Shown here in pieces: positions 28,969 to 47,795 of a stretch of 47,795 nt of DNA. Each line of letters begins with the position of its first letter. The first letter of the stretch is position 1. The stretch is from Cyclobacteriaceae bacterium (GTDB taxonomy: Bacteria > Bacteroidota > Bacteroidia > Cytophagales > Cyclobacteriaceae), in assembly GCA_019638285.1 (NCBI GenBank), contig JAHBUB010000030.1:1-47795 (forward strand). Direction: 5' to 3'. Position numbers and translations under genes: made by a program. The notes under the pieces were generated by a model that worked only from the letters and a program-made list of their open reading frames with translations, was not told where the DNA came from and made no database searches.

Positions 28969-28985
28969 CCCCTTTAAATATATCA

Positions 28986-30212: not shown

Positions 30213-30230
30213 AAATTATCAGCTGCTGAC

Positions 30231-30259
30231 AAAAAAGGCTCCATAAAAGGAGCTTTTTT
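30231..30259 (+). terminator. Intrinsic terminator after the PD40 gene
   Basis: AAAAAAGGCTCC (30231-30242) pairs with GGAGCTTTTTT (30249-30259) with one bulged G and a 6-base loop, and is followed by more T. Confidence 0.88.
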
Positions 30260-30302
30260 TTATATACAATTCTTCCTTTCACTATAAAAATCCCCTCTGC
30301 TC

Positions 30303-30337
30303 TTTGATGTATGTTTGATGTAAGTTTCTCAATCAAA
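30303..30337 (+). promoter_or_regulatory. Direct and inverted repeats upstream of the membrane PAS kinase
   Basis: TTTGATGTA occurs twice (30303-30311 and 30314-30322), 11 bases apart, one helical turn. The second copy also forms an inverted repeat TTTGAT-N12-ATCAAA (ATCAAA at 30332-30337). The block lies about 100 bases upstream of the kinase start, a plausible binding site for a regulator such as the NarL-type proteins encoded here. Confidence 0.4.
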
Positions 30338-30428
30338 AGCAACTATTTATTAAGACCATTAAGTTTCTATAACTTTAATAAATAAAATACAATTGATCAC
30401 CGGAACAGAAACTAAACCAGTTAATCCG

Positions 30429-33245
30429 ATGAAATCAAAAACTGGAACTTTAGTCATCCCATCATTTCTGATTATCGCAGCTTTGCTCGTTATCGGTGCG
30501 ATCACTACCGCGATCATTAATAAGAGATACTATACACTGAGCAAGCAACTTCAAATAACAAACTATAACTTACTCCATCTGGAGGAGGTCAGACTTAAGA
30601 CCGGGGATATGGTAGCGTCTTCCTTGCGGTATGCCATCACAGGCTCCAGGAGTCAAAATACTCTCTTTTATACATCCTACAAATCCTTACAGTCTGCCAG
30701 TAAAGAAATCCTTGCGCCTGACACTGAAGCAACTCATAACTATATAGATAGTCTTTCACTTGCGATAGTATCTCTCCAGAAATTCAGCCAACAAATAGTA
30801 ACAGCAAGGGAGAAAGAGGACCCAAAATTAGTAAACACCCTGATGGGTACCGTAAATGGAGAAAATTTGCGAAGTGAAGTACACAGGTTAATCAATTCCC
30901 TCGAAAGTTTTAATAGATCAGAGCTACGTGCGTTAGAATCTGAACAACAATCCCTGGCTTCTAATGCAGCCTATATTAGCTATTTTGGCTTTTCCATTAG
31001 TCTGCTCTCCCTCACAGTTGTGTTTTACCTACTTAACAAAGAGCTCTCCAAAAGAAAAGTAGCAGAGTTAAGCCTTAAAAAATTGAATGAGACATTGCAG
31101 GAGGAAGTGAAGAAGAAAACATCAGAAGCGGATCAGGTTTTTAGCAGAATCTCAGATGCCTTTATTGCCTTCGATAAGAATTGGCAATTTACATATATTA
31201 ACAAAAGTGCTGCTGCATTTATTGGTAAAGATGCCGAAGAATTGTTAGGCAAAATAGTTTGGGATGAATTTCCTGAATCTGTTAACACCTCCTTCTATCA
31301 TTCCTGTTATAAATCCATGGATTTGCAGCAATATGTTTATCATGAAGCCTATTATGAACCTTGGGATATCTATGTAGAAACACGTATATACCCCTCTGAA
31401 AATGGATTATCCGTTTTTCTTAGAAATGTAAGTGAGTTAAAAAAGGCAGAGCGAAAAGAGAAAAAATTAGAAGAACAATTCAAGGCCATTGTTGATAATA
31501 CCAACGATATCATACTGCTGGCAAATGATAATGGCGAATACATTCAATGCAATGAAGCAGCCTGTCGGCATTTAGGTTATACCAAAGATGAAATATTAAA
31601 ATTAACAATCTACGACTTGATCGAATCAACTCATGATGCTATAGCAGAGGAACTCTGGAATGAATTTAAAGAGAACGGTACTTCTAAAGGACTGATTAAG
31701 TTAAAGAGAAAAAATGGAAAACTAATTGAATGTCAATACAGTGCAAAAGACAATGTCCAACCTGGTGTTCATCTATCCATACTAACAGATGTAACAAAGC
31801 TCATTAAAACAAATAAAAAACTATCAGTAAGCCAAAAAAGATACAAAAACGCAGAGTTCATCGGGCAATTAGGACATTGGGAACAAAATCTAGAAGACGA
31901 CAGCATTAAGTGGTCAGATGAAGTGTATCGAATTTTTGGAATCAGCAAGTCAGTCGCTCTCGACTATAAGTTGTTTTTTAGTTTCATTCACCCTGAAGAT
32001 CAGCAAGGATTCCAAAAAGAACATGAATTGGCAGTGACTGGTAAGCAACCTCTTGATGCAATTTATCGTATGATTAGAAGCGATGGCCAATTAAGATATA
32101 TTCATGAACGGGGGAAGATCATTAAAGACAAGCACGGTATCCCTGTTAAACTTAGTGGAGTAGCTCAAGACATTACAGAAAGAAGAGTTATAGAAGAAGA
32201 TACCATTCAATCGAAAAGACGATTTGAAGCCATTTTCAACGGCACAAATGACGCCATTCTGGTAGCCAACGATACTGGAAAATATGTACAGGTGAGCCCT
32301 GCAGCATCCAGGATACTTGGGTACTCTCAGGAAGAGTTGTTAAACAAAACAGTCATGCATTTGATGCTAGATAATGTAAATGATAATGACAAATATGCAA
32401 TGTGGGAAGATTTTAAAAAGGGTGGTTATCAAACCGGTACAATCGAATTGACTCGAAAGGATAAACAATTGATCACCTGCAATTATTCAGTAACAGCTAA
32501 CATATTGCCTGGCCTTCATTTATCCATTTTTACAGATATCACTGATAAGTACAAAGCCGAGCAAGAGCTTCAATTATCTTATCACCAGCTTAAGGAATTA
32601 ACAGGGCGGCTTCAAATTGTAAGAGAAGAAGAAAGAATTCACATTGCGCGAGAAATTCACGATGAATTAGGGCAGAAATTAACGGGTATAAAAATTGATA
32701 CATCCTGGCTTGGTAAAAAAATCGAGGATAACGAGGATGCCAAAAAGAAGATTGGGGAAATCATGAGCCTGATTGATGATACAATCGATACCACCAGAAG
32801 AATATCTTCTGAATTAAGGCCAGGACTGTTGGAATATTTCGGGTTGATTGTAGCCTGTGAATCACAATCCAAAGAGTTTGAAAAAAGGCATCAAATCAAA
32901 AGCAATTTTGTTTCAGAAATAAGCACAGTCAATTTTAGTTTTAATGTCGCACTAGGTATCTATAGGATTTATCAAGAGGCATTAACAAATATCGCTCGGC
33001 ATGCGCAGGCTACCTTGGTGGAAACGTTGATCACACAAGTTGATAATCATTTTATTTTGACGGTCAAAGACAATGGGTGTGGGTTTGATCAGAATGAAAT
33101 CAAAAAGAAACACTCTTTGGGTTTAGTTGGCATGAGGGAAAGGGCTAACCTCGTGCTGGGAGAGCTGGCCATTGAAAGTAATAAAGGGGCTGGTACATCC
33201 ATCTGGATCAAAATTCCCCTTGATCAAGAATTAAGTAAGTCATGA
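30429..33245 (+). CDS. Membrane-bound multi-PAS histidine kinase (HisKA_3/NarX type)
   Basis: From ATG 30429 the protein is 938 residues; a TTG at 30393 adds 12. Two membrane spans (near residues 8-30 and 180-205) flank a helical extracytoplasmic sensor of about 150 residues. Four PAS domains follow; the second and fourth are clear duplicates of each other (NTNDIILLANDNGEYIQ versus GTNDAILVANDTGKYVQ). The kinase core is HisKA_3, with the phospho-acceptor His near 744 in IAREIHDELGQKLTG, then EALTNIARHAQA, DNGCGFDQNE and GLVGMRERANLVLG. This is the NarX-like class that partners NarL-type regulators, and exactly such a gene overlaps its stop codon by ATGA. Confidence 0.94.
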   Translation: MKSKTGTLVIPSFLIIAALLVIGAITTAIINKRYYTLSKQLQITNYNLLHLEEVRLKTGDMVASSLRYAITGSRSQNTLFYTSYKSLQSASKEILAPDTEATHNYIDSLSLAIVSLQKFSQQIVTAREKEDPKLVNTLMGTVNGENLRSEVHRLINSLESFNRSELRALESEQQSLASNAAYISYFGFSISLLSLTVVFYLLNKELSKRKVAELSLKKLNETLQEEVKKKTSEADQVFSRISDAFIAFDKNWQFTYINKSAAAFIGKDAEELLGKIVWDEFPESVNTSFYHSCYKSMDLQQYVYHEAYYEPWDIYVETRIYPSENGLSVFLRNVSELKKAERKEKKLEEQFKAIVDNTNDIILLANDNGEYIQCNEAACRHLGYTKDEILKLTIYDLIESTHDAIAEELWNEFKENGTSKGLIKLKRKNGKLIECQYSAKDNVQPGVHLSILTDVTKLIKTNKKLSVSQKRYKNAEFIGQLGHWEQNLEDDSIKWSDEVYRIFGISKSVALDYKLFFSFIHPEDQQGFQKEHELAVTGKQPLDAIYRMIRSDGQLRYIHERGKIIKDKHGIPVKLSGVAQDITERRVIEEDTIQSKRRFEAIFNGTNDAILVANDTGKYVQVSPAASRILGYSQEELLNKTVMHLMLDNVNDNDKYAMWEDFKKGGYQTGTIELTRKDKQLITCNYSVTANILPGLHLSIFTDITDKYKAEQELQLSYHQLKELTGRLQIVREEERIHIAREIHDELGQKLTGIKIDTSWLGKKIEDNEDAKKKIGEIMSLIDDTIDTTRRISSELRPGLLEYFGLIVACESQSKEFEKRHQIKSNFVSEISTVNFSFNVALGIYRIYQEALTNIARHAQATLVETLITQVDNHFILTVKDNGCGFDQNEIKKKHSLGLVGMRERANLVLGELAIESNKGAGTSIWIKIPLDQELSKS

Positions 33246-33865
33246 GGGTGCTTATCGCAGACGATCATGCTATTGTAAGAAAAGGACTCATTGAGCTTTT
33301 GAAGGAAGAGTTTCCACTCCTCAATGTCACTGAAGCGAGCAATGGGGTGCAAGCGTTGGCTGAAATCAACAAAAAAATATGGGATATCATTTTGTTGGAC
33401 ATCTCCATGCCTGGCCAAAATGGAATCGAAGTGTTGAAACAAATGAGAGCGATGGGGATCAAAGCGCCCATACTGATGTTGAGTATGCACCCGGAAGAAA
33501 CATTTGCCATCAGGGCTTTGAAAGCAGGCGCCTCTGGTTTTCTGAATAAGGACAGGACACCCGAAGAACTCACAAGCGCCATACAATTAGTCTTGGCCGG
33601 AAGGAAATACGTCACCCCTAAAATTGCAGAACAATTGGCTGATTTGATGGATCCTTCCATGCAGCCATTGTACAACCGGCTTTCGGATCGAGAAATACAG
33701 GTTTTACAACTAATAGCCTCCGGTATGCAGGTATCGGATATTGCAGAAGAAATTTCGCTGAGCGTCAATACGATCAGCACCTACCGCACCAGAATCCTTG
33801 AAAAATTAGCACTGAAAAATAATGCTGAAATTACCCGATATGCGTTTGATAACAACTTGGTCTGA
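33242..33865 (+). CDS. NarL/FixJ-family response regulator
   Basis: The 207-residue protein has a receiver (IADDHAIVRKGLIELL, phospho-acceptor Asp53 in IILLDISMPGQNG, Lys in FLNKDRTP) and a LuxR-type helix-turn-helix (LSDREIQVLQLIASGMQVSD, SLSVNTISTYRTRILEKL). Its start overlaps the stop of the HisKA_3 kinase, the usual cognate class. It would act as a transcription factor activated by that kinase. The gene is followed by a perfect palindrome CCCTATAGGG at 33907-33916. Confidence 0.95.
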   Translation: MRVLIADDHAIVRKGLIELLKEEFPLLNVTEASNGVQALAEINKKIWDIILLDISMPGQNGIEVLKQMRAMGIKAPILMLSMHPEETFAIRALKAGASGFLNKDRTPEELTSAIQLVLAGRKYVTPKIAEQLADLMDPSMQPLYNRLSDREIQVLQLIASGMQVSDIAEEISLSVNTISTYRTRILEKLALKNNAEITRYAFDNNLV

Positions 33866-33906
33866 CCCAAGTGTAGTACAAACCACGACAAGACAATCAT
33901 TATTTC

Positions 33907-33916
33907 CCCTATAGGG
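33907..33916. repeat. 10-bp palindrome between signalling modules
   Basis: CCCTATAGGG is a perfect palindrome 41 bases after the second NarL-type gene and 18 bases before a near-consensus -7 box. Its position just upstream of a promoter would suit an operator. Confidence 0.35.
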
Positions 33917-33934
33917 CAGCACATCTAACTGCCT

Positions 33935-33942
33935 GACCTTTG
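33935..33942 (+). promoter_or_regulatory. Near-consensus -7 box of the second signalling module
   Basis: GACCTTTG differs from TAnnTTTG at the first base only and lies 33 bases before the ATG at 33976. Its TTG would be an in-frame alternative start codon (33940), but a start inside a promoter box is unlikely. Confidence 0.45.
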
Positions 33943-33975
33943 TATCACAAAAGAGTGATTAAAGGCAAAGTAATC

Positions 33976-34371
33976 ATGACCAAAAATATCAAAATAGTGA
34001 CCGTAGAGGATTCGACCATTGTCGTAAATCGGTTGAAGACCATGCTAGGTGCTTTAGATGGAGCAAATTATATGGGAAACGTGACCACAGTCGCCTCTGC
34101 TAAACTTCTAATAAATTCAATTCAGCCGGATGTAGTGATTCTAGATATTCATTTGGCAGAGGACGCACCGCACGCCAATGGCATTACACTGCTTCCCTGG
34201 TTAAAAGAAAATCATCCACAACTAATCATCATCATGCTAACAAACCAAGTGGAGCCTCACTATAGGAACACTTGCAATCAATGCGGAGCTCACTATTTCT
34301 TGGATAAATCAAAGGAATTTGACAAAGTAGCTCAAGTTATTACTGAATCCATGTCATCAAAATGTTTCTAA
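33976..34371 (+). CDS. Stand-alone receiver-domain response regulator
   Basis: The 131-residue protein is a receiver only: acidic site in VTVEDSTIVVNRL, phospho-acceptor Asp in VVILDIHLAEDA, the switch Thr in IMLTNQV, and Lys in YFLDKSKEF. An unusual CNQCGAH (CxxC) precedes the last strand. With no output domain it may relay phosphate or act by protein contact. The ATG at 33976 is chosen over the TTG at 33940, which falls within a promoter-like box. The next kinase starts inside its last codons, with an overlap of 10 bases. Confidence 0.9.
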   Translation: MTKNIKIVTVEDSTIVVNRLKTMLGALDGANYMGNVTTVASAKLLINSIQPDVVILDIHLAEDAPHANGITLLPWLKENHPQLIIIMLTNQVEPHYRNTCNQCGAHYFLDKSKEFDKVAQVITESMSSKCF

Positions 34372-35825
34372 CCAGCAAACACACAAACAGAGCACTCAAC
34401 AAATTAGGGTTTTTAGTGGTAATTGTCACTGCCTTTTTAGAATATATAAGTCCACTTGGCGTGTTTATTACTTGGGGATATATACTGGGAGTTCTTCTTA
34501 CCATTCCACACAATAAGAAAAGCAGTACCCTCGCAGCCTCTCTCCTTTCAGCAATCCTTATCCTACTATCCTTGTTTTATCAACCTGGAGAAGTAGATTC
34601 AAAAATCATTGTGCAGAATCGTCTGTATGCCATTGGTGGATTACTTTTAGTCACGCTATTTGCAATCAGGGGTATATCAATAGATAAAACCGATAAGAAT
34701 ACAAAATCTCTTATGGCCGGAATTCTTTCGCACGGTACAGAGGCCATTCTACTTATTGATGACCAATATAAAATCGTACTTGCTAATCCCTTTGCCAAGA
34801 ATTTATTTGGATATCAAAAGATTGAAATAGAGGGCAAGGACATTAATACCATAATACAGGGGTTTACAGATTATCCATTCTCATCTCATTCCGAGAAAAT
34901 AAACTATTATTTTTCTAAAGAAGAAAAAGACAGTAAGAAAGAATTATTAGGAAAGCATCAAAATGGATCTTTTTTTCCGATTGAAATTAGCTTCAATAAA
35001 TATAAATCTGGTGGAGAACCATTTATTGTCATTTTTGCATCTGATGTTACGCTCAGAAAGCAAAATGAACAACACTTAAAAGAAAAGAAAAGCGAATTAG
35101 AGGTTGCCATCCAGGAGTTAGAAGCTTTTACCTATTCAGTTTCACATGACCTGAGGGCACCACTGCGCGCAGTCGCGGGTTATGCACAAATGTTGTATGA
35201 AGATTATCATGATACAATTGATAGTGAGGGAAAGCGCTTATTGCAAAACATCCAATACAATGCAGAAAAAATGGGGAAGCTGATAGATGACCTACTCACC
35301 TTTTCCAGACTTGGAAAGAAAAAAATCAATAAGACTACTGTAGACCTGGAAGCAAACGTGAGGCAAATCGTCCACGAGCTGCGCGAAGTTACTCCTTACC
35401 ATGCACAGGTAGTTATCCATCCTCTTCACCATGTTCATGCTGATCAAAGCCTGTTGAATCAGGTAATAATTAACATGATATCGAATGCTTTAAAGTACTC
35501 ATCAAAAAAAGAAAATCCACTGATTGAGATTACCTCTGAGGAAAAAGAAGGTGAAATCCATTTTTCAGTAAGAGACAATGGAGCGGGTTTCGACCCAAAC
35601 TATACCCATAAGTTGTTTGGTGTATTTCAGCGACTTCATACAGAAATTGAATTTGAAGGAACCGGTGTGGGCCTGGCAATCGCTCAAAGAATAATTCATA
35701 AGCACAATGGAAAAATGTGGGCAGAAGGAAAAGAAGGAGAAGGCGCCACATTTTACTTCAGTTTACCCTACGAAAAAACAGAAGTATATCAACTCTTATC
35801 AACTCATCAAACAACTGTAGAATAA
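34362..35825 (+). CDS. Membrane PAS histidine kinase (phytochrome-like HisKA core)
   Basis: The 487-residue protein begins with three closely spaced hydrophobic spans (about 14-105), followed by one PAS domain (about 120-232) and a HisKA helix with His262 in YSVSHDLRAPLRAVAGYAQ. The ATPase domain has NMISNALKYSSKKENP, DNGAGFDPNYTHKLFG, FQRLHTEIEFEGTGVGLAI and a YFSLP end. The core is of the type found in bacteriophytochrome kinases, which typically work with small Rcp1-like receivers; such a receiver follows directly, its ATG overlapping this stop by one base. The membrane part probably senses a membrane or envelope signal. Confidence 0.93.
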   Translation: MFLTSKHTNRALNKLGFLVVIVTAFLEYISPLGVFITWGYILGVLLTIPHNKKSSTLAASLLSAILILLSLFYQPGEVDSKIIVQNRLYAIGGLLLVTLFAIRGISIDKTDKNTKSLMAGILSHGTEAILLIDDQYKIVLANPFAKNLFGYQKIEIEGKDINTIIQGFTDYPFSSHSEKINYYFSKEEKDSKKELLGKHQNGSFFPIEISFNKYKSGGEPFIVIFASDVTLRKQNEQHLKEKKSELEVAIQELEAFTYSVSHDLRAPLRAVAGYAQMLYEDYHDTIDSEGKRLLQNIQYNAEKMGKLIDDLLTFSRLGKKKINKTTVDLEANVRQIVHELREVTPYHAQVVIHPLHHVHADQSLLNQVIINMISNALKYSSKKENPLIEITSEEKEGEIHFSVRDNGAGFDPNYTHKLFGVFQRLHTEIEFEGTGVGLAIAQRIIHKHNGKMWAEGKEGEGATFYFSLPYEKTEVYQLLSTHQTTVE

Positions 35826-36265
35826 TGAAAAATACAAATATAGATATTTTGCTTATAGAAGATAGTCCGCATGATGCAGAGATGAGTTTGCGTGCTTTAA
35901 AGAAAAATAAAATTGCCAACGACATAATTCATTTAACAAACGGAGCTCAGGTGCTCAATTTTCTTTTTGGTTTAGGCGAATTTGAAGGAAGAGATGTGGA
36001 TAATAAACCCAAACTAATATTACTTGATCTAAAAATGCCGAAAATAGATGGCATTGAGGTGCTACAGAAAATCAAACAAAATGAATCTACCAAAAGGATA
36101 CCTGTTGTCGTGTTAACCTCATCGAAAGAGAATCCAGATATACAGAAATGCTATGACCTGGGTGCCAATAGTTACCTGGTTAAACCGGTTGATTTTAACA
36201 GTTTCATCCGATCAGTTACCGATTCTGGAATGTATTGGATGCTTTTAAACCAATTGCCTTATTAA
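35825..36265 (+). CDS. Rcp1-like single-domain response regulator
   Basis: Starting at ATG 35825 gives 146 residues: MKNTNIDILLIEDSPHDAEM, then NGAQVLNFLFGLGEF, phospho-acceptor Asp in LILLDLKMPKIDG, VVLTSSKENPDI and YLVKPVDFNSF. The insert around LFGLGEFEGRDVDNKP is typical of the Rcp1 family that pairs with phytochrome-like kinases. The frame runs further upstream through the kinase gene, but that part is Arg-rich and unrelated, so ATG 35825 is the true start. It lacks an output domain and is likely a phosphorelay intermediate or a protein-binding switch. Confidence 0.93.
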   Translation: MKNTNIDILLIEDSPHDAEMSLRALKKNKIANDIIHLTNGAQVLNFLFGLGEFEGRDVDNKPKLILLDLKMPKIDGIEVLQKIKQNESTKRIPVVVLTSSKENPDIQKCYDLGANSYLVKPVDFNSFIRSVTDSGMYWMLLNQLPY

Positions 36266-36301
36266 AGTTAAATAAACAGTAGAGAAGAGAGGAACGAGGA
36301 A

Positions 36302-38518
36302 ATGAGAAAAATAAAAATACTACACCTGGAAGATGTGAAGTCTGATGCAGATCAGATCAATCGCATTCTCAAGAAATCGAACATTGAATTCGAATCCAAA
36401 TTGGTGGATACCCGAAAGGAGTTTGTTGAAGCATTGACATCCTACCAGCCCGAAATCATATTGAGCGACCACAGTCTGCCTACTTTTAATTCACTGGAGG
36501 CGATGGATGAATTACTGAAACACCAAAAGAAAATTCCGTTTATTCTGGTCACGGGGGCCGTCTCGGAAGAATTTGCAGCCATTGCAATGAAAAAGGGGGC
36601 AGATGATTACATCCTAAAAGACCGTTTACAACGGCTTCCCTCTGCAGTCATCAGCGCAATAAAAAATTATGATGCAGAACAACAACAACAGTATGCCATT
36701 AAACAACTGAAAAATATCTCTGAATATTCGGAAGATGTGATATGCAGCTTTGATGGCGAAGGTAAATTTAAATATGTAAGTGCAGCTGCCGAGAGAATTT
36801 GGGGATACAAGCCAGAAGTACTAATCGGAACCTCTTTCTATAACCTGGTTTGCAATGAAGACATAGAGGCAACCAAAACGGTAGCCCGTCAAATTATAGC
36901 CGGTACGTCAGTGAGTACCTATGAAAACCGATGTATAAGAAAAGACGGAACCATAATTCCCATTATCTGGTCTTCAAAATGGGAAGAGAAGGAGAAAACA
37001 ATGTTTACCATCGGCAAAGACGCCACTGAGCATGTATTGGCCAGAAAGAAACTAGAAGAAAGTAAGCGCCAGTATGTGCATTTGGTAGAGAACTTACCAA
37101 AGGCAACCTATACATGCGATGCAGAGGGTCGTATAATCTTGTACAACCCTGCATGCGTCAATTTATGGGGAAGGCATCCCGATCTAAACAAAGATTTATG
37201 GTGTGGTTCCTGGAAAATATTAGATCAGAAGAACAATCCAATGCCTGTCGGTGATTGCCCCATGGCCAGGGCGATTAAAGAAGGAAGAGCCATTCGTGGA
37301 GAAGAGATTATCATTCAGCGACCCGATGGATCCAAGCGAATTGTACTCCCCTACCCAAGTCCTCAGTTTGACGAGTCAGGTGTTGTTACTGGCGCTATCA
37401 ATGTGCTGGTAGACATTACAGATCGGAAAGCGATAGAAGAAGAAAATCATAAACTAGCCCTGATTGCACGCGTTACGGTAAACGCAGTGGTGGTCACGGA
37501 TATTGAAGGAAGAATAACATGGGTGAATAATGGATTTGAACGCATCACTGAATATTCGATGGAGGAAGTGATTGGTCAAAAACCAGGCGATTTACTGCAA
37601 GGAAAATATACTGACCCTGCTACCATACTGCACATGCGAAAATGTAGGCAGGAAGGTAGAGAATTCAGGGTGGAAATACTTAATTATACTAAATCGGGCA
37701 AAGAATACTGGCTGGACATTGAAGTCATGCCCTTGAAGGACCATCGTCAAAAGCTGATCGGCTTTATGGCCATCCAACAAGACATCACTGAAAGAAAAAG
37801 GTCAGAAGTGGAAACTCAAAATATGATAGGTCGCCTCCAATCCATCAATAGAGACTTGAGACAGTTTTCATACATCGCTTCCCACAATCTGCGGGCTCCT
37901 ATAGCTAGGATATTGGGATTAGCTAACCTTCTAAATATCGACATGGAGGACCGACAAATATGTATTGATAGGATAGCACAAGAGACCATCAGTCTGGATA
38001 TGGTAGTGAAAGATATCAATCAGGTTATCTCTGCGCATGACACTAAAGTAGAGAAATTAAGTGAAGTGAATATGAGTCTAATGTATCAATCTGTAATGAC
38101 GACTCTGAAAAAAGAGATTCATACAAGCAATGCAATCGTTAATCCGAATTTTGATAATGCTCCCGTCATCTCATCTGTTGGTACGTATGTTTTTAACATG
38201 CTGTTCCATCTTATTTCAAATTCATTAAAATTTAGATCCGAAAACACCATCCCCCGTATAAATGTAACGTCATCTCAAGACCGAGACTGTAACTACATTG
38301 TTGTTGAGGACAATGGATTGGGGGTAGATCTAAAAATACACAGACAGAAACTTTTTGATCTCTATCAAAAATTTCATGGAGACCGCTATCCAGGAAGAGG
38401 CATGGGGCTTAATCTTATCAGGGCGCAGGCAGAAGCGTTGGGCGGTGGTATTGAGGTGGAGAGCGAGGTGGGCAAAGGATCAAAGTTTACCATTTACTTA
38501 AGGAAAAATAAAAAGTAA
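36302..38518 (+). CDS. Hybrid REC-PAS histidine kinase
   Basis: The 738-residue soluble protein starts with a receiver domain (ILHLEDVKSDADQI, phospho-site Asp in IILSDHSLPTF, LVTGAVSEEF, YILKDRLQRLP), followed by three PAS domains (about 140-245, 255-375 and 385-500) and a HisKA-type helix with His528 in YIASHNLRAPIAR. The ATPase domain shows LISNSLKFRSEN, DNGLGVDLKI and GRGMGLNLIRA. The N-terminal receiver would accept phosphate from another kinase and control this one. It lies 36 bases after the Rcp1-like gene and ends the signalling block. Confidence 0.93.
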   Translation: MRKIKILHLEDVKSDADQINRILKKSNIEFESKLVDTRKEFVEALTSYQPEIILSDHSLPTFNSLEAMDELLKHQKKIPFILVTGAVSEEFAAIAMKKGADDYILKDRLQRLPSAVISAIKNYDAEQQQQYAIKQLKNISEYSEDVICSFDGEGKFKYVSAAAERIWGYKPEVLIGTSFYNLVCNEDIEATKTVARQIIAGTSVSTYENRCIRKDGTIIPIIWSSKWEEKEKTMFTIGKDATEHVLARKKLEESKRQYVHLVENLPKATYTCDAEGRIILYNPACVNLWGRHPDLNKDLWCGSWKILDQKNNPMPVGDCPMARAIKEGRAIRGEEIIIQRPDGSKRIVLPYPSPQFDESGVVTGAINVLVDITDRKAIEEENHKLALIARVTVNAVVVTDIEGRITWVNNGFERITEYSMEEVIGQKPGDLLQGKYTDPATILHMRKCRQEGREFRVEILNYTKSGKEYWLDIEVMPLKDHRQKLIGFMAIQQDITERKRSEVETQNMIGRLQSINRDLRQFSYIASHNLRAPIARILGLANLLNIDMEDRQICIDRIAQETISLDMVVKDINQVISAHDTKVEKLSEVNMSLMYQSVMTTLKKEIHTSNAIVNPNFDNAPVISSVGTYVFNMLFHLISNSLKFRSENTIPRINVTSSQDRDCNYIVVEDNGLGVDLKIHRQKLFDLYQKFHGDRYPGRGMGLNLIRAQAEALGGGIEVESEVGKGSKFTIYLRKNKK

Positions 38519-38586
38519 GTCGCCTAGATTCTTAAATTTAAGCTAGCCAGGCGCTCAATCTCCTGAACCAATCTTTCAACTGCAAC

Positions 38587-38606
38587 ACCCTGACAGGGTA
38601 AACCCT
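38587..38606 (+). terminator. Overlapping alternative hairpins after the signalling block
   Basis: ACCCT/AGGGT (38587-38591 with 38595-38599) and AGGG/CCCT (38595-38598 with 38603-38606) share the same central arm. The second is followed by TTATTTTATT. It may be a weak terminator with an antiterminator, or simply overlapping dyads. Confidence 0.5.
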
Positions 38607-38805
38607 TTATTTTATTATACTCAAACCCTCAAACACGCCAGATTACCTCTATCCAGAGTCGCAATAGATCCAAAATTCGTGTGTGGTAAGTGGAAACCCC
38701 GAATTAATAAAATCAGGATTTCACTGTCGTTTGCGAAATGTTATATATAGAATTTAGTGCAATGAAATTTATTAAAAGATAAAAATCATTTAAACTTTAA
38801 TCTAT

Positions 38806-38913
38806 TATGTCGTTGAAAGAACTTACCGAACTAAACAGTATGTTTGTAATCCAAAGCAAAAGTGTCAGTTTTTCTGCATCGTATGGATATCTACTGTACT
38901 GCTATTGGGGTTG
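38806..38913 (+). CDS. Possible small protein (35 residues)
   Basis: The frame begins MSLKELTELNSMFVIQSKSV and ends in an aromatic, hydrophobic stretch (SYGYLLYCYWG). Codon use resembles coding DNA, but with only 35 codons this is weak. The charged helical N-terminus followed by a short Tyr/Cys/Trp/Gly-rich end recalls leader-core peptides, but no modification enzymes are nearby. It could equally be the start of a decayed gene whose later part lies in another frame. Confidence 0.25.
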
Positions 38914-39044
38914 ATTTGTGTGTTTTCTCATTATATGATTTATTAATTGAGTTGACAAAAAATAAAAAGCACTCCATATCAATAGTAAATATTATTGGTT
39001 CGGTTGCTTTGAAAAATATAGCTGCACAAATCCTATTAAACTGA
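38862..39044 (+). CDS. Possible small hydrophobic protein or gene remnant (60 residues)
   Basis: The frame (MSVFLHRMDIYCTAIGVDLC to IAAQILLN) starts within the small frame at 38806 but in a different phase. GTG is the codon at 38862. It looks helical and fairly hydrophobic, without a known motif. A single-base frameshift between the two frames would join them into one protein of about 80 residues, which is why both are listed. Confidence 0.25.
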   Translation: MSVFLHRMDIYCTAIGVDLCVFSLYDLLIELTKNKKHSISIVNIIGSVALKNIAAQILLN

Positions 39045-39264
39045 TTTTAAAGGATTCACTTAAATTAAAGAATCCTGTTAAATTATTATTTGGTTTTCAT
39101 AACAAATATACTAACAAGTATCAATGGTGCTCCACCTTTGTGAGTAAGGAATAAAAATTAGGAGTTTAGCAACTATCTATGCATTGTAAGCTTCTTTGAT
39201 TTTTGCCATTAAGGTTGTCCATTTTCAATCCGCTACTTATCTTGATAGCATAATTGTATAAAAT

Positions 39265-40965
39265 ATGAGTTTACGCCTTTTAGTAATTACACTTTTTACC
39301 CTTCCTTTTATCACAGAAGCGCAATTCACTCCATCTGAAATGTATCCGTTTTCTACCCAGTTCGAAGCAGATCGTGGGAGCTTGGAGCGTTTTTATGTCA
39401 TTGAAGGTTCGCCCGAGCGCAGGGCACGAATGATAGCCTTTTATAAAGACTATACTAAGAAACTGGAGCAACTTTCTTTTGAATTGTTTTCTACTGGTGG
39501 CAAGGTGGATTATCTGTTGATAAAGCGTGAATTGGAAAACGAACTGTACTTACTCAACCAAGAAGAAAAGGAAGCAGCACTCGTATCAGGATATACCACT
39601 TTAGCCAGTCCTTTGTATGAAATAGAAAAGCAACGCAGGCGTGGCAAATATTTAGAAAGTGAAAAGGTAGCACAGCAAATGAATGAAATGGCCGATCTAA
39701 TTACAGCCATGCTTAACAAACTCAATAGTGAACCCAATCTTACGCCATTACTTGCAAAACGAGCGAGCTCTATCATTGGCGGACAGCAATCCGCATTAAG
39801 AAGTGTGTATGATTTTTATAGTGGTTATGACCCTCAATTCTCCTGGTGGATACCAAAACCTTATCAGGAGTTGGATAGCTTACTTAGCACGTATGGTGAA
39901 GCTTTAAAATCAAAGATCGATCCTGCCAGTCAGCCTAAAGACGATGGCAGTGGAATTATAGGAAATCCTATTGGTCGTGATGAACTCATCCGGCTTCTTC
40001 AATATGAAATGATTCCCTATACACCGGAAGAGCTAATCAATATTGCCAATAAAGAATTTGCGTGGTGTGAGGTAGAGCTCCTGAAAGCTTCACGTGAAAT
40101 GGGTTTTGGCGACAACTGGAAAGCGGCCCAGGAAAAAGTAAAGCAATCCTTTGTTCCTGCAGGGCAACAGCCGGAGGCCATGCTTAAATTATACAATGAA
40201 TCTATTGCTTTCCTTAAACAGCACGACCTCATCACCATTCCTCCCATCGCAGAAGAAACCTGGCGCATGGATATGATTCCACCAGAACGGCAGCTGGTGA
40301 GTCCCTTCTTCCTCGGTGGAGAGACTTTACAAATATCCTACCCTACGGACGAGATGAACCATGAAGACAAACTCATGAGCATGCGGGGCAATAATCCACA
40401 TTTCTCAAGGGCAACAGTTCACCACGAACTAATCGCAGGACATCATATGCAGGGTTTTATGAATAAACGTTATCAACCCTACCGTCATTACCGTACTCCG
40501 TTTTGGGGTGAGGGATGGGCCTTATACCAGGAATTCATTTTGTGGGACATGAAGTTCCCACAATCGCCCGAAGACCGTATCGGTATGCTCTTCTGGCGCA
40601 TGCACCGTTGTGCACGCATTATATTTTCACTAAATTATCATATGGAAAAATGGACCCCTCAACAATGCATTGACCTTCTGGTAGATAAGGTGGGACATGA
40701 ACGTGCCAACGCAGAAGGCGAAGTGAGGAGATCGTTCACCACCGACTACGGCCCACTGTACCAGTTGGCCTATATGACTGGTGCCTTTCAGTTCTATGCG
40801 CTCAAAAAAGAACTGGTAGACAGCGGAAAGATGACTTACAAGCAATACCATGATGCAGTAATGCATGAAAATGCAATGCCGGTAGAGATGGTACGTGCGA
40901 TCCTCACCGATCAAAACCTAAAACGTGATTTTAAAAGTACCTGGAGATTTTACGATAAAAAGTGA
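39265..40965 (+). CDS. Secreted DUF885-family metallopeptidase
   Basis: The 566-residue protein has a signal peptide ending FITEAQFTP. The catalytic region holds HELIAGHHMQG at residues 387-393 onward, a variant of the DUF885 HExxPGHH motif with Ala in place of Pro, and FWGEGWALYQEF with the downstream zinc-ligand Glu416. These are the marks of this HExxH-type zinc-peptidase family, thought to hydrolyse peptides in the periplasm. The end of the protein (DYGPLYQLAYMTGAFQFYAL) is also typical. It follows the long intergenic region and precedes an unrelated membrane gene by 87 bases. Confidence 0.88.
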   Translation: MSLRLLVITLFTLPFITEAQFTPSEMYPFSTQFEADRGSLERFYVIEGSPERRARMIAFYKDYTKKLEQLSFELFSTGGKVDYLLIKRELENELYLLNQEEKEAALVSGYTTLASPLYEIEKQRRRGKYLESEKVAQQMNEMADLITAMLNKLNSEPNLTPLLAKRASSIIGGQQSALRSVYDFYSGYDPQFSWWIPKPYQELDSLLSTYGEALKSKIDPASQPKDDGSGIIGNPIGRDELIRLLQYEMIPYTPEELINIANKEFAWCEVELLKASREMGFGDNWKAAQEKVKQSFVPAGQQPEAMLKLYNESIAFLKQHDLITIPPIAEETWRMDMIPPERQLVSPFFLGGETLQISYPTDEMNHEDKLMSMRGNNPHFSRATVHHELIAGHHMQGFMNKRYQPYRHYRTPFWGEGWALYQEFILWDMKFPQSPEDRIGMLFWRMHRCARIIFSLNYHMEKWTPQQCIDLLVDKVGHERANAEGEVRRSFTTDYGPLYQLAYMTGAFQFYALKKELVDSGKMTYKQYHDAVMHENAMPVEMVRAILTDQNLKRDFKSTWRFYDKK

Positions 40966-41058
40966 GTGAATGGATATAAGATGAACCATTCAAGTTTGAT
41001 CTTAAGTAGTAGGTTATATTAAGCATACCTTTAAGAACAGAGGTATAACTTATTGCGC

Positions 41059-41733
41059 ATGCAACAACCTTCCATTTCTTTATTGGGTATAAGGATAGAC
41101 GAGCCGGTGAACATGTTCACCGATTTAATCGTTGCTGCGGTTTGCCTTATTGCTTATTATAAGTTAACAAGGCTAAAGCTGCCGGGTAAAACCCAACGCT
41201 ACTTCCGATTGTACTTTTTATTAATGGGACTCGCCACCTTCTTTGGTGGTGTAATAGGCCACGGTTTTTTGTATGCCTTTTCCTTTGCATGGAAACTTCC
41301 GGGATGGATTCTCAGCATGTTTTCCATTGCCCTTATTGAGCGATCCTCTATTGAAAATGCCAGACCGCTCATTGATCCGCGCATTGGTAAATCTTTCCTC
41401 ACACTCAATATCATCGAATTGATCATTGTGATGACCATCACAATTTATACCCTTAATTTTAAGTGGGTAGAGTTTCACTCCGGCTATGGCCTGCTTGCTG
41501 TAGTATTGACATTCCATGGTTTTGTGTATCTAAGGACACGCAATCCAGGAAGCAGCAATATTATTATTGGGGTAGGCATTGCCAGCATTGCCGCTTTGAT
41601 TTTCATGAATGAAATCTCTCCACATATCTGGTTTAACCATATTGACCTAAGTCATGTGCTCATGGCAGTAGCGGCTCAATTCTTTTACAGAGGGGCTTTG
41701 AAGCTGAGTAGCCCATCCCCTCAACCCAATTAG
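41059..41733 (+). CDS. Integral membrane protein of unknown function
   Basis: From ATG 41059 the protein is 224 residues (a TTG six bases earlier is the alternative). Six to seven hydrophobic spans are evident, with HGFLYAFSFAWKLPGWILSM, FHSGYGLLAVVLTFHGFVYL and NHIDLSHVLMAVAAQFFYRG. Histidines near the span ends (GHGF, FHSGY, FHGF, DLSHVLM) recur and could bind metal or haem. It resembles uncharacterised Bacteroidota membrane proteins of the DUF6962 type, a tentative match. Its stop abuts that of the convergent CHAT gene. Confidence 0.75.
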   Translation: MQQPSISLLGIRIDEPVNMFTDLIVAAVCLIAYYKLTRLKLPGKTQRYFRLYFLLMGLATFFGGVIGHGFLYAFSFAWKLPGWILSMFSIALIERSSIENARPLIDPRIGKSFLTLNIIELIIVMTITIYTLNFKWVEFHSGYGLLAVVLTFHGFVYLRTRNPGSSNIIIGVGIASIAALIFMNEISPHIWFNHIDLSHVLMAVAAQFFYRGALKLSSPSPQPN

Positions 41734-44547
41734 CTACATTCCGATCATAACAAAGGCACCCCAGTAATAGGGCTCTTTGTATTTGGCGAGAAGCTGTACC
41801 TGGGCTTGTTTAAAAGCTTTCTGCTTGTTGCCGCTTTTTATCCAGTTGGTATAAAAGCTTGACATCAATAGTTGTGTGGCCTCGTCATCCACTTTCCATA
41901 AACTCATGATAAGTGCGTGGGCACCCGCCACCTGGAAAGCTCTTTGTAAACCATATACACCCTCGCCTGATTTCACATCACCCAGTCCCGTTTCGCAAGC
42001 ACTCATGATTACTAAATCTGTTCCTTCGAGATCGAGGTTCATGGCCTCGTATGCGGTAAGTATTCCATTTTCACTGTGGGTGATATCAACCGCTTTTGTA
42101 TCGTTGATGGCACCCTTCGCATCAGCCAAAATCAAACCACTGCGCAGCAATGGATTATGAGAAGCATTCTCTGCATCTACCCCATAGACAGAACCATGGG
42201 CACCCTTCACATCTTGAAGAAAATAACCATGCGTAGCAATGTGTACAATCATCGGTGCCTTTATGGCCTTAATGCTCTTCTCCGTAGCTTCCTTCTGCAT
42301 GCGCTGTGTTACACTGTAGTTGGCCGATTTCAGCACACGAGATATATTCTCTAACTCCACCTTGGTTCCCGGCAGTGGCGGCACCGCATCCGTGGCATAA
42401 TCGGGGAAACCCAAAAGAAAAGCATTCTTTGCCCCTGCATGCGGCTTGCGCGCCTTTATATCGATCAAGTCCTTCGCGTTTCCTAAGATGGCAATGTCAT
42501 ACCGATTGATATTAAACTCCCCTTTCTCGTTTTTAAGGGTATTCAGGTTTATTTGACTGTACACACCATCAGGAGAAATATAGAGCACCTTCTTGCCAGT
42601 CAATAAGGGATCAATACGGCCCCAGAATTGATCATAAGAATACTCATCGGGCACACGTTGTTGTATAGCAGTACGATAGTACTTTCCATAACGTGTTTCC
42701 AATTGGGTGCCATTATCCAATTCTACTACCTGAAGGTCGCCCGTCTTTTTCAATACAAAGGCAACATATTTTGCATCGTCTTTAAAGTCCTGATCAAAGA
42801 GCCTCACCCGCACAATATCTACGATCGCTTCATTGTCGCCCAATAGGTTAGTCAACTCTTGGTGATCGGTTTGCTTTGATGCATAACCAGCAGTGAAAAG
42901 AGAAGACCTTTCGGACAATGATCTTTCCATTGTATTCACTTGGCGCTCCATTTCCGGCAGGTTAATGTTCTGCTCCGCCAGTTTCTCTTTGGAGAATCCA
43001 TACATCTGTGCCAGTTGTTCTTTCTGATCCAGCCAATTGATATAGTCTGTTTTCAATGCAGCATCACTGCTACTGAGAATAGCCTGCTTTACCTTGTTGG
43101 TGCTATTGATTAATAGTGCTTTGGTAGCAATGTGATAATTATAAAAATCAGCTTTTAACGCTTTCACGGTACCCATATTCTCTAAAGAGAAATTATAGAA
43201 TCGCTGGAAGCGTGGTGCGGTGATATCCCAAAACTTGGTTTTCTCCGCTTCGCTCATGGGAGGAAAATAACGATTAATAAAATCAATCGTCTTGTCCATT
43301 ACTTCCTTGTACAGTTTATAGGCTTCTTCAGGTCGGTTGGTTTTCCAATAAAGAATGGCCAAATCTTCTTCCGTACGAACGAAATCCGGATGCTGATGCT
43401 CCAGGATATTGCCCCTCACCTCATAAGCGCGGGTCAATTGCTTTTCCGCATCTTCATATTTCCCTGTCTGTCGATAAAAATTTCCAAGATCGTTGAGCAC
43501 TTTGGCGAAATACACATTCTGATCGCCAAATCTTTTCCTATAAATTTCTCCGGACTGAACGAGTAAGTCATGCACCAAATCATTCTTACCCATTTGAATA
43601 TAAAGTATACCCAGTTGATTCAGTAAGCCTGCATATTCAATGTTTTTGGATTGTCCCCTATTCTCAAACACTTTCTTGATGGCCAGAAAATTCTGCTCTG
43701 CCTCTTCAAAGCGACCTGATAACTGGTACATGGTAGCCAGGTTGGCGCGAAACTTTCTGTTGTCAAAAGAGTTCTCCCCAGATTTCAAAAACTTTTTCGG
43801 AGCCACCTCTGATGACTTCATCGCCAAATTCATTTGATCAAAGGCTTCTTCATAGCGCCCCATCACATGCAATAGCATGGCCTTATTATTTAAGATGATG
43901 GCCTTTTGCATGCCGTCACCAAAAAATGATTCACACAACTGAAGCGCTTCGGTAAATTCCTTTTCCGCCTCGTTGTATTTTCCCAGCGATTGATGAAGCT
44001 TAGCGTAATTGTTAAGATTGGCGATATAAGCGGCACTGGATTTGCCCAATGCCTTCTCACTATCAGAAAGAGATTCAACAATAAGCGATTCAGCAGCCAG
44101 CGCTTTACCTTGTACGAGGTATATCAAGCCGAGGTTTGATATCGTGCGCAGGTAAACCAACTCATTGGTAAGGCCCTCCTTTTCCAGCATCCCTTTTGTT
44201 TCCAACACATACAACTCCGCCATCTTGTACCTGTTGAACCCAAACAAACTGATGCCTGTCTCCAGGTTTTCACGGGCCAATTCAAGCTTGGTCTTATCCG
44301 CCTCATCCTTTAGCTGGTAAAGGAGTTTGGAGGAGGTCTCCCCTTTTTGTTCTACATCAAAGAATCCAGCGCTCTGGTTAAGAGAAATAGCAAATTGAAA
44401 ATCAACCGAGTCCAGACTGGCAACTTGTTCACTGCCCTTCTTACTTAGCTTTTTACTTAGTTTTTTTCCAAATAGATCCAACACATCCTGTGCAAAGACA
44501 TAGTTTGTCAAGGAGAAAAATAGAAAAACCAGAGAAAAGCGAATCAT
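41734..44547 (-). CDS. Secreted TPR-CHAT caspase-like protease
   Basis: The 937-residue protein has a signal peptide (about 1-20, ending YVFAQ). TPR repeats fill roughly residues 85-430 (NLGLIYLVQGKALAAESLI, NNYAKLHQSLGKYNEAEKEF, LGNFYRQTGKYEDAEKQLTR, LAILYWKTNRPEEAYKLYKE). A helical middle region leads to a C-terminal CHAT domain (about 640-937) with the His/Cys dyad of clan CD peptidases: His773 in IVHIATHGYFLQ and Cys851 in VIMSACETGLGDVKSGEG, followed by LIMSLWKVDDEAT. CHAT proteases cleave a specific partner protein. Here it is exported and encoded 13 bases after a small coiled-coil secreted protein, its likely partner or substrate; that link is inference. Confidence 0.92.
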   Translation of the reverse strand: MIRFSLVFLFFSLTNYVFAQDVLDLFGKKLSKKLSKKGSEQVASLDSVDFQFAISLNQSAGFFDVEQKGETSSKLLYQLKDEADKTKLELARENLETGISLFGFNRYKMAELYVLETKGMLEKEGLTNELVYLRTISNLGLIYLVQGKALAAESLIVESLSDSEKALGKSSAAYIANLNNYAKLHQSLGKYNEAEKEFTEALQLCESFFGDGMQKAIILNNKAMLLHVMGRYEEAFDQMNLAMKSSEVAPKKFLKSGENSFDNRKFRANLATMYQLSGRFEEAEQNFLAIKKVFENRGQSKNIEYAGLLNQLGILYIQMGKNDLVHDLLVQSGEIYRKRFGDQNVYFAKVLNDLGNFYRQTGKYEDAEKQLTRAYEVRGNILEHQHPDFVRTEEDLAILYWKTNRPEEAYKLYKEVMDKTIDFINRYFPPMSEAEKTKFWDITAPRFQRFYNFSLENMGTVKALKADFYNYHIATKALLINSTNKVKQAILSSSDAALKTDYINWLDQKEQLAQMYGFSKEKLAEQNINLPEMERQVNTMERSLSERSSLFTAGYASKQTDHQELTNLLGDNEAIVDIVRVRLFDQDFKDDAKYVAFVLKKTGDLQVVELDNGTQLETRYGKYYRTAIQQRVPDEYSYDQFWGRIDPLLTGKKVLYISPDGVYSQINLNTLKNEKGEFNINRYDIAILGNAKDLIDIKARKPHAGAKNAFLLGFPDYATDAVPPLPGTKVELENISRVLKSANYSVTQRMQKEATEKSIKAIKAPMIVHIATHGYFLQDVKGAHGSVYGVDAENASHNPLLRSGLILADAKGAINDTKAVDITHSENGILTAYEAMNLDLEGTDLVIMSACETGLGDVKSGEGVYGLQRAFQVAGAHALIMSLWKVDDEATQLLMSSFYTNWIKSGNKQKAFKQAQVQLLAKYKEPYYWGAFVMIGM

Positions 44548-44560
44548 AAAAAGGATATAT

Positions 44561-45073
44561 CTATTCTATCGGCTCGCCACGTGATTTAAGTTCGTCACCC
44601 AGCAGTTTCATGTCGTCCTGAAGCATTTGAGCAATTGACTTCATATTGCTTTTTGAGGAATCCAATCCTTCCGCAGATTTCTTGGTGTTTGCAGTGGCCT
44701 TGAGGGACTTCATTTTGGGAGTTATTTTACTGGCATTGGCCAGCATGTCTTTTCCTTTGTTATCCAGCTCTACAATATTGGAATTGATGGTTTCCACCTC
44801 TCCTTTAACGCCTGTAAGCGCCTTATAGTGTCCTTTAATCTTTTCGACACTCACCGTTGACATCACTCCCGAATATTCTTTGATTTCCTCGTCTATGTGC
44901 TTGAGGTTCGCATTCAATTTTGTGGACTCTTCTAGTATATTAAAGGAGCTGTTTTTAAAATTATCAAACTCACTCTCTCCAATGTCGGCCGGACGAGTGG
45001 GCGCTTTGTCTTGTGCAAACAAAGGGGCACTTCCCATAACAACGGCCAATAGGATCATATATGCTTGCTTCAT
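44561..45073 (-). CDS. Small secreted coiled-coil protein upstream of the CHAT gene
   Basis: The 170-residue protein has a signal peptide ending SAPLFAQDKAPT. The mature part is almost entirely alpha-helical and charged (FNILEESTKLNANLKHIDEE, VKGEVETINSNIVELDNKGK, MKSIAQMLQDDMKLLGDELK), with heptad-like hydrophobic spacing that suggests a coiled-coil bundle. No domain is recognised. It is the first gene of a two-gene minus-strand unit with the TPR-CHAT protease, with 13 bases between them. A TPR-binding partner or protease substrate would fit, but nothing in the sequence proves it. Confidence 0.8.
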   Translation of the reverse strand: MKQAYMILLAVVMGSAPLFAQDKAPTRPADIGESEFDNFKNSSFNILEESTKLNANLKHIDEEIKEYSGVMSTVSVEKIKGHYKALTGVKGEVETINSNIVELDNKGKDMLANASKITPKMKSLKATANTKKSAEGLDSSKSNMKSIAQMLQDDMKLLGDELKSRGEPIE

Positions 45074-45404
45074 AGTTGTAGATTTTTATATCTGATTTAA
45101 GGGGTTTAAAGGTCAAATTTTAGAAAAATTAACGTACATAAAAAGGAATGGTTATACAATAAACGTCTTATTTTCATAGCAGACTGCCGTATGAGAATTA
45201 ACAATGCATAAACAGTGCCGTAACTTGATTTGATCAGAAATCCTTTGGTCCAAAGGCAAACTTTGACCACCATGCAACCCGTTTTTTCAGATGATTTTGT
45301 AAAAGAATTTGATGACTAAAATCATTTACTCCTTGAGTAATATCATGGGCACCTTAATCTGAATTTTGCCATATTTGCGGACTTGTAATTATTAATAGGA
45401 AACA
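45074..45404. other. Intergenic region between the CHAT operon and GAPDH
   Basis: The 331 bases hold a hairpin CCTTTG-GTC-CAAAGG (45242-45256), an 8-bp inverted repeat ATGATTTT/AAAATCAT (45291-45298 and 45318-45325), and a near-consensus -7 box CATATTTG at 45370-45377, 27 bases before the GAPDH ATG. The inverted repeat upstream of the -7 box could be an operator. Confidence 0.45.
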
Positions 45405-46880
45405 ATGAAAAATCAAGTGACAAACACAGGAAAAGAGACCACTCAATACGAACAAGAACTCAACAATTGGATAAGCAAAGAAATGGCTGCCATTGACCTA
45501 ATCGGGTCCATTGGCGCACTTTTCTACGATAGGAGCATCGAACTGATGCTATTCAAAAACCGACTCATCGATCAAAGCGTTTCCGGCATACTGAGCCTGC
45601 ACAAATATGCCAAAGATGTAGTCAACAAACCCATTAACATCTTTGACTCTGCCGAGTTGGCAAAACTCATCGTTGCAGGCAACTATAGCCCCTCAAGAAT
45701 AGACATTGGAAGACTGGCTTATGAGTGGCAAGAAGAGAAGAGCAACTTTAGCGATAAATCCGATTTTATCAACCAAAAGCTAAAAGGTTTTGAGAATGGC
45801 CATGAGAAACCACTGGTTCCAAGGGATGTGATCTTATTTGGTTTTGGTCGAATTGGTCGCCTTGCTGCGCGTGAGTTAGTGCAAAATGCCGGAAAAGGTC
45901 AACAATTGCGACTGAGGGCCATTGTTTCGCGCGGCAACTCCGATGAAAACATCATTAAAAGAGCCGCTTTGTTAAGAACGGACTCAGTACACGGCCCTTT
46001 TAAAGGCGTGATTGTGGAAGACCTCGAAAACAAAACGCTACACATCAACGGGCAGATTGTGCACATGATCGAATCTGACAGTCCGGAAAAAATCGACTAT
46101 GAAGCGTATGGCATTAGCAATGCTTTGCTAATCGATAACACTGGTACGTTGCGCGACCGCGAATCCTTTGGAAAACATCTAAAAGCCAAAGGAGTAAGCA
46201 AAGCACTACTCACTGCGCCTGGGAAGGATTTCCCCAATATCGTGTATGGAGCCAACCATACCGATTTTGATTTGGATAAGGAAGACCTATACTCTGCTGC
46301 CTCTTGTACCACCAATGCCATTGTACCCGTTCTCAAAGTGATTCACGATAAATTGGGCATTGAAAAAGGACATATAGAAACCGTACATGCCTATACCAAC
46401 GATCAAAACTTGCTGGACAACATGCACAAGCACCACAGAAGAGGACGCTCAGCGGCTATTAATATGGTAATTACTGAAACTGGAGCAGGGAAAGCGGTCA
46501 CCAAAGTAATCCCTAACTTAAAAGACAAGCTTACTGCAAACGCAGTGCGCGTACCTACGCCCAATGGGTCACTTGCCATCATGAACCTTGCAGTAAGTAA
46601 GGAGACCAGCCTCGAAGAAGTCAACAGTCTCATCAAAGATGCAGCCCTCAACGGTGAGTTGGTAAGTCAGATTTATTATTCCATCAATCAGGAATTGGTA
46701 TCCAACGACATCATAGGTAACTCCTGCTGCTCTGTCTTTGACAGTCCTGCCACAATTATTCACCCCGACAAAAAGAACATAGTGCTTTACGTTTGGTACG
46801 ACAACGAATATGGTTACACTCGTCAGGTGATACGCCTGGCCAAGCACGTGGCCAAAGTGAGAAGGCTTACTTATTATTAA
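45405..46880 (+). CDS. gap: Glyceraldehyde-3-phosphate dehydrogenase, long form with N-terminal extension
   Basis: The 491-residue protein has a GAPDH body from about residue 140: Rossmann start ILFGFGRIGRLAARELV, active-site Cys301 in SAASCTTNAIVPVLKVI, HAYTNDQNLLDNMHKHHRRGR, the PNGSLAIMNL region and WYDNEYGYTRQV. Classic GAPDH is about 335 residues; the extra ~140 at the N-terminus (YEQELNNWISKEMAAIDLIG, SVSGILSLHKYAK) are helical and typical of a separate long GAPDH group found in Bacteroidota and some Proteobacteria, often considered gluconeogenic. It interconverts glyceraldehyde-3-phosphate and 1,3-bisphosphoglycerate. The gene is monocistronic with a clear terminator. Confidence 0.95.
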   Translation: MKNQVTNTGKETTQYEQELNNWISKEMAAIDLIGSIGALFYDRSIELMLFKNRLIDQSVSGILSLHKYAKDVVNKPINIFDSAELAKLIVAGNYSPSRIDIGRLAYEWQEEKSNFSDKSDFINQKLKGFENGHEKPLVPRDVILFGFGRIGRLAARELVQNAGKGQQLRLRAIVSRGNSDENIIKRAALLRTDSVHGPFKGVIVEDLENKTLHINGQIVHMIESDSPEKIDYEAYGISNALLIDNTGTLRDRESFGKHLKAKGVSKALLTAPGKDFPNIVYGANHTDFDLDKEDLYSAASCTTNAIVPVLKVIHDKLGIEKGHIETVHAYTNDQNLLDNMHKHHRRGRSAAINMVITETGAGKAVTKVIPNLKDKLTANAVRVPTPNGSLAIMNLAVSKETSLEEVNSLIKDAALNGELVSQIYYSINQELVSNDIIGNSCCSVFDSPATIIHPDKKNIVLYVWYDNEYGYTRQVIRLAKHVAKVRRLTYY

Positions 46881-46904
46881 GTAAAAAATAATCTTCAATC
46901 CATT

Positions 46905-46928
46905 TAGAGTCCCTCGAAAGGGACTCTA
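46905..46928 (+). terminator. Intrinsic terminator after gap
   Basis: TAGAGTCCCT (46905-46914) and AGGGACTCTA (46919-46928) form a perfect 10-bp stem with a CGAA tetraloop, followed by a run of ten T. Confidence 0.95.
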
Positions 46929-46998
46929 TTTTTTTTTGGATGTGCCTCGTTGTCACAGGATGAGCACGAGCGAGATGCTTGTGCCATTTGAGATTCCT

Positions 46999-47072
46999 CG
47001 GTCGTCCTTCGTCCTCCCTCTGAATGACGTAGTTATAGCTTGAAAACGCACTGATCAATACTATCGTCACTC
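46999..47072 (+). repeat. 74-base direct repeat, copy 1
   Basis: This copy starts CGGTCGTCCTTCGTCCTCCC and ends ATCGTCACTC. It matches 47184-47257 at 71 of 74 positions. It is non-coding and looks like a dispersed genomic repeat unit. Confidence 0.9.
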
Positions 47073-47140
47073 TCGCCCCTGTTGGTGTTCATCATCAACG
47101 GACGACTGAACTGTACATCTCAGTTTGTTGGTCAAGAAGA

Positions 47141-47159
47141 CTTAGCCTCTGTTGGTGTG
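47141..47159 (+). repeat. Inverted repeat arm, partner at 47321-47339
   Basis: CTTAGCCTCTGTTGGTGTG here is the reverse complement of 47321-47339 with two mismatches. The core CTGTTGGTGT also occurs at about 47079-47088. The two arms enclose repeat copy 2. Confidence 0.8.
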
Positions 47160-47183
47160 TGACTCTGCCTGCGGCAAGGCAGG

Positions 47184-47257
47184 CGGTCGTCCTTCGTCCT
47201 CCCTCTGAATGACGTAGGTATAGCTTGAAAACGTGCTGATCAATACTATCGTCACTC
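47184..47257 (+). repeat. 74-base direct repeat, copy 2
   Basis: Second copy, 185 bases after the first, with three substitutions. A GCCTGC-N6-GCAGGC hairpin lies immediately before it. Confidence 0.9.
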
Positions 47258-47362
47258 AGAGCAATAGCGAAGAGTCTGGCGCTAGCCCATGGTTGGTAAT
47301 TTTTACAACCACACAACCTAAACACCAACAAAGGCTAAGAATCCCTTTAAAGATGATTTGTT

Positions 47363-47412
47363 AATGAAACGGCGACCACCGAGATCTACACACCACGGTA
47401 CACCCTTTCCCT
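47363..47412. other. Illumina P5 adapter-like sequence (probable artefact)
   Basis: Positions 47363-47391 match the 29-base Illumina P5 adapter (starting AATGA, core GGCGACCACCGAGATCTACAC) with a single mismatch at 47368. The next 8 bases (47392-47399) occupy the place of an i5 index, and from 47400 ACACCCTTTCCCT matches the start of the read-1 primer with one mismatch. P5 is a synthetic sequence, so this is best explained by library contamination or a chimeric join. Confidence 0.85.
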
Positions 47413-47795
47413 CCACTCCTTTCGTTCCTCTTTTGAATGGAATGTCCAAGCTACAATTCGGCTAGATTTATTACCTGTTCCCATCGGAATCGTTTTGATC
47501 TGCTTCGCTTCAGTGTTTTCCAATTGGCTATATATACTTTTGAGATTAGATTGCTTGGATACTAAAGTTGAAAACCATAAGCAGTTTTTGGCAAACTTCT
47601 CGCTTTCTCTAATCATATTCTGGATGAATTTAGATTCACCCCCAGCACATATCAGTTCGTTGCTAATTCCGGCAAAATTAAGTTCAGGTGTCTTTACTTT
47701 TTTACCCAATAGATTCATGACTTTTCTCCGACTCCCCTCTTGCGCATCTTCGGCCGAAGAATGAAAAGGTGGGTTACATACCGTAAGTTCAACTT
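47386..47795 (-). CDS. rlmF: 23S rRNA adenine-1618 N6-methyltransferase RlmF, C-terminal part
   Basis: The minus strand is open from the right edge down to a TAG at 47386-47388. It reads VELTVCNPPFHSSAEDAQEG, whose NPPF is the catalytic motif of N6-adenine methyltransferases, then NELICAGGESKFIQNMIRES, KNCLWFSTLVSKQSNLKSIY and KTIPMGTGNKSSRIVAWTF, all characteristic of RlmF. The enzyme methylates A1618 of 23S rRNA. The ATG at 47718 is internal and not the start; the N-terminal half is outside the window. The stop codon lies inside the adapter-like sequence, so the last residues (about RERVYRGV) may not be genuine. Confidence 0.9.
   Translation of the reverse strand, partial: VELTVCNPPFHSSAEDAQEGSRRKVMNLLGKKVKTPELNFAGISNELICAGGESKFIQNMIRESEKFAKNCLWFSTLVSKQSNLKSIYSQLENTEAKQIKTIPMGTGNKSSRIVAWTFHSKEERKEWRERVYRGV

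Follow-up and report, generated by a model that had tools for sequence, protein, structure and literature searches.

Sequence from Illumina reagents has been described in deposited genomes. Where PhiX has contaminated the genomes of microbial isolates (PMC4511556, in the part of that paper available), Illumina reagent sequence was likewise carried into assemblies, although there it was the PhiX control genome and in the locus presented here it is an adapter oligo. Literature searches returned no paper dedicated to remnants of the P5 oligo specifically, only papers on general adapter or reagent contamination, as far as the available parts of these sources go.

P5 is also present in many other public assemblies, partly in contig interiors. 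Two scans placed its exact 23-base core at least 246 times in at least 240 public loci. Among the placements listed, 228 of 246 have the 5' side of P5 no more than 250 bases from a locus end, and the other 18 have more than 250 bases upstream of it; 8 of these 18 have their 3' side near a locus end and 10 are interior, although a public locus may end at a storage cut instead of a contig end, and L175, counted as "interior", lies only 276 bases from an end. The flow-cell oligo carries a T linker upstream of P5, and 137 of the 141 listed placements with enough upstream sequence show at least 7 T in the 9 bases preceding P5. The sequence downstream was sorted for 251 listed placements, five of them copies of our own locus: TruSeq accounts for 119 that lack i5 and for 6 with an 8-base gap, Nextera for 90 with an 8-base gap and for 1 with a 6-base gap, while 4 run off the end and 31 are of other kinds, including our five copies because of a mismatch in their primer. 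At least six loci (L070, L116, L145, L168, L179 and L185) have an interior P5 after a T run and neither index nor primer recognised downstream, and this arrangement is a recurring type of adapter scar in public contigs. The "complete genome" of Stella vacuolata ATCC 43931 (AP019702.1, locus L106) carries the P5 core, an 8-base gap and the Nextera primer at about position 7310.

The DNA analysed here (the window) is an entire contig of 47,795 bases (C24), with P5 about 400 bases short of its tip. On the plus strand, 28 of the 29 bases at 47363-47391 equal the Illumina P5 oligo, AATGATACGGCGACCACCGAGATCTACAC; the sole mismatch is at 47368, and none of 100 dinucleotide shuffles matches P5 at three or fewer mismatches. 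With up to three mismatches allowed, the last 22 bases of P5 occur once in the window's own assembly (3,978,398 bases in 85 contigs, scored 99.39% complete), namely at this site. The identity of 47363-47391 as P5 is near certain. An earlier note on this DNA had reported the 28 of 29 bases and had held that such agreement cannot arise by chance; the count is confirmed and the judgement holds for P5 itself, but less so for the primer bases that follow, since 47406-47412 lie within homology to the rRNA methyltransferase gene rlmF. The locus is like the public TruSeq dual-index remnants in its oligo, at least six of these likewise having an 8-base gap after P5, followed by the first 12 bases of the read-1 primer. 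Like the 18 listed placements with longer upstream sequence, it differs from the majority in that the 5' end of P5 faces a 47-kb contig body, which P5 connects to a 390-bp stub of rlmF at the tip. We conclude that the feature is almost certainly an ordinary artefact of the laboratory, namely Illumina adapter left behind at a chimeric joint. The view that an adapter is embedded in the assembly is sustained by the P5 match, by the termination of homology to rlmF at 47406, by a missing RlmF motif and by the many public cases. There is no biological function or mechanism to propose for the insertion.

The minus strand at 47386-47793 corresponds to the C-terminal part of RlmF, the 23S rRNA (adenine(1618)-N(6))-methyltransferase (positions 175-293 of 293 in profile NF008725, E 4.4e-48). 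Its score of 164.4 bits is below the whole-protein cut-off of 302, and the C-terminal part alone is present. The stub proper, the 3' part of rlmF (47406-47795, minus strand, 390 bp), is cut by the contig end and is uncertain in both placement and origin. When the full-length RlmF of a genus mate (G020) was searched against the window's own genome, the stub alone was matched (query residues 187-320 of 325), and residues 1-186, the 5' part of rlmF, were not found in that assembly. Because P5 is the stub's only link to the body and the 5' part was not found, neither the end of RlmF nor its location nor its membership of this genome can be relied upon. The doubt that the earlier note had cast on the rlmF C-terminus is therefore justified and has to be widened to the whole stub, and the link between rlmF and the repeat block, which it had also questioned, is indeed made through P5.

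A possibility to be taken seriously, though we do not favour it, is that the stub came from another organism or library by cross-contamination and arrived with the adapter molecule, which is compatible with an adapter at a chimeric joint and concerns the origin of the stub only. It is favoured by the sparse occurrence of rlmF in the genus (8 of 62 genomes, own included; the gene was found in 106 of 291 genomes of an order sample, own included and partial matches counted) and by its 5' part not having been found in a nearly complete assembly. Of the two genes that flank rlmF in G020, one has no match in the own genome, in a search run without a positive control, and the other a match of merely 32%. 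The stub is 83-84% identical to G020 at the DNA level, versus 66-71% for the four longest matches of window positions 27500-47362, the stretch covered by this comparison, in which 40 of 60 candidates were scored. Against this, shorter matches from the same region reach 88%, the GC content of the stub (39.4%) does not set it apart from the contig (40.9%), and no near-identical source was found, the best in the genus having 84% protein identity. The gene neighbourhood may also just be a different one, and the part of rlmF that is missing could have fallen into a gap in coverage. In a search for synteny, window ORFs of at least 120 aa were compared with 11-20 kb of sequence surrounding rlmF in each of four genus mates and gave three distant protein matches (23-30% identity) besides rlmF. 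We regard it as rather unlikely that the stub stems from another species of this genus that has not been sampled, in which case the rRNA methyltransferase reported by the assembly would be missing from the organism itself.

Downstream of P5, also on the plus strand, come 8 bases at the place of the i5 index (47392-47399, ACCACGGT) and then a stretch (47400-47412) that agrees at 12 positions with the opening 13 bases of the TruSeq read-1 primer. In a scan of gaps from 0 to 20 after P5, a gap of 8 scored 12 and the runner-up 7, which bears out the exact 8-base gap claimed before. The earlier count of 12 of 13 primer bases is likewise correct, but 7 of the 13 (47406-47412) are shared with rlmF, possibly as microhomology, and support independent of rlmF comes from 47400-47405 alone, where 5 of 6 bases match; at least 5 of these 6 bases are matched at 0.42% of window positions. 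The index and primer reading is for this reason likely, and weaker than first claimed. Over the whole 33-base primer 21 bases match, short of a complete primer, and the sequence after the first 13 bases is rlmF, so that the adapter is at most a truncated one. Neither ACCACGGT nor its reverse complement appears as a whole word in the literature searched, and the 8-mer is accordingly not identified as a catalogued index. One published text has its letters inside what we take to be 16S rRNA gene sequence. Although the available part of that text (PMC8387020) contains both these letters and P5, it was for that reason rejected as evidence of a published index. P5 followed by an index and a truncated primer is nonetheless a probable composition of the adapter.

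How far the foreign sequence extends can be judged from the end of rlmF. As the earlier note had stated, the stop codon of the rlmF frame (47386-47388) falls inside P5. The nearest genus mates found (G335, G313 and G020) share 84, 83 and 82% RlmF protein identity with the window, and when the window was compared by blastn with the DNA of the rlmF regions in these genomes, the identities were 84.6, 81.8 and 82.8%. The earlier note had proposed that the C-terminus be compared with relatives, and in all three of these the homology terminates at 47406. A motif W-x3-[R/K]-W lies near the RlmF C-terminus in each of the 20 loci in which a terminus could be located, from a survey of 30 loci in which the 10 whose terminus was missed by the motif are left outside the count; the displayed C-termini do not include that of G335. 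In a second RlmF set of 7 loci, 4 had a terminus that could be located; 3 of these carry W-x3-R-W, and the fourth (L007 of G003) ends earlier. The window RlmF has no W-x3-[R/K]-W and reads WRERVYRGV up to the stop. Given this missing motif and the homology end at 47406, 47363-47405 is very likely adapter; judged from sequence comparison, this segment is most likely not rlmF, and the last residues of the window RlmF would most likely be adapter-coded.

It is improbable that only a bare P5 is foreign and that the 8-base gap and primer-like bases are the true 3' end of rlmF, which would also make the feature an artefact. The six public loci in which P5 follows a T run with no index or primer recognised agree with such an arrangement, as does the sharing of 7 of the 13 primer-matching bases with rlmF. 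RlmF C-termini do vary: in one relative (locus L007 of G003, a genome 77% complete) the protein ends shortly past a WTY motif without W-x3-[R/K]-W, an observation that also counts against the explanation preferred here. However, homology to the three relatives halts short of the primer-like ACACCC and of the 8-mer, the terminal [R/K]-W common to the 20 loci is missing, and the primer start stands at exactly gap 8. That the segment is genuine genomic sequence resembling P5 is hardly conceivable and was rejected, for nothing more than its presence in a contig speaks for it, against 28 of 29 bases of a synthetic oligo, no match in any shuffle, a single copy found and the break of a conserved gene end.

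On the preferred explanation, that of leftover adapter at a chimeric joint, P5 would have been part of a library molecule, most likely together with an i5 index of 8 bases and an incomplete read-1 primer, and this molecule would have been fused to the 390-bp rlmF fragment. Since 47406-47412 belong to both primer and rlmF, the fusion may have occurred by annealing of the primer at the shared bases, probably through mispriming or template switching at TTTCCCT. Untrimmed reads of this molecule would then have been attached by the assembler to the 47-kb body at its repeat-rich end, the point of attachment being the 5' end of P5 or a position shortly before it. Several observations run counter to this explanation. 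Neither P7 nor the 28 bases that make up the rest of the TruSeq primer for read 1 has a match in the own assembly at up to three mismatches, the orientation of P5 in the window is that of a minority among the public placements listed, and ACCACGGT lacks a whole-word match in the literature searched. The T count before P5 in the window, 6 of 9 bases (47354-47362), is also below the mark of at least 7 seen in nearly all listed placements.

The same 6 T, a count reached by 2.7% of window positions, hint at a joint located within a damaged read of the linker; the limits of this joint, where the contig body meets the 5' end of P5, are estimated at 47340-47368. The significance of the feature is one of quality control alone. 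The contig should be trimmed before about 47340, and no reliance should be placed on the annotated end of RlmF, on its adjacency to the repeats and to a glyceraldehyde-3-phosphate dehydrogenase (GAPDH) gene, or on its occurrence in this genome. No repeats spanning the joint were found in 47260-47470. Two 74-base direct repeats (46999-47072 and 47184-47257), 96% alike and containing CATTCAGAGGGAGGACGAAGGACGA on the minus strand, adjoin it; shorter related stretches are present on contigs C7, C10, C11 and C26, and the 74-base unit is a dispersed intergenic repeat, which is perhaps the cause of a contig break near the joint. The GAPDH gene (45405-46880) encodes a 491-aa protein of type PRK08289, whose best match in each of the 8 genus mates searched is 36-37% identical and starts at query residue 141-144.
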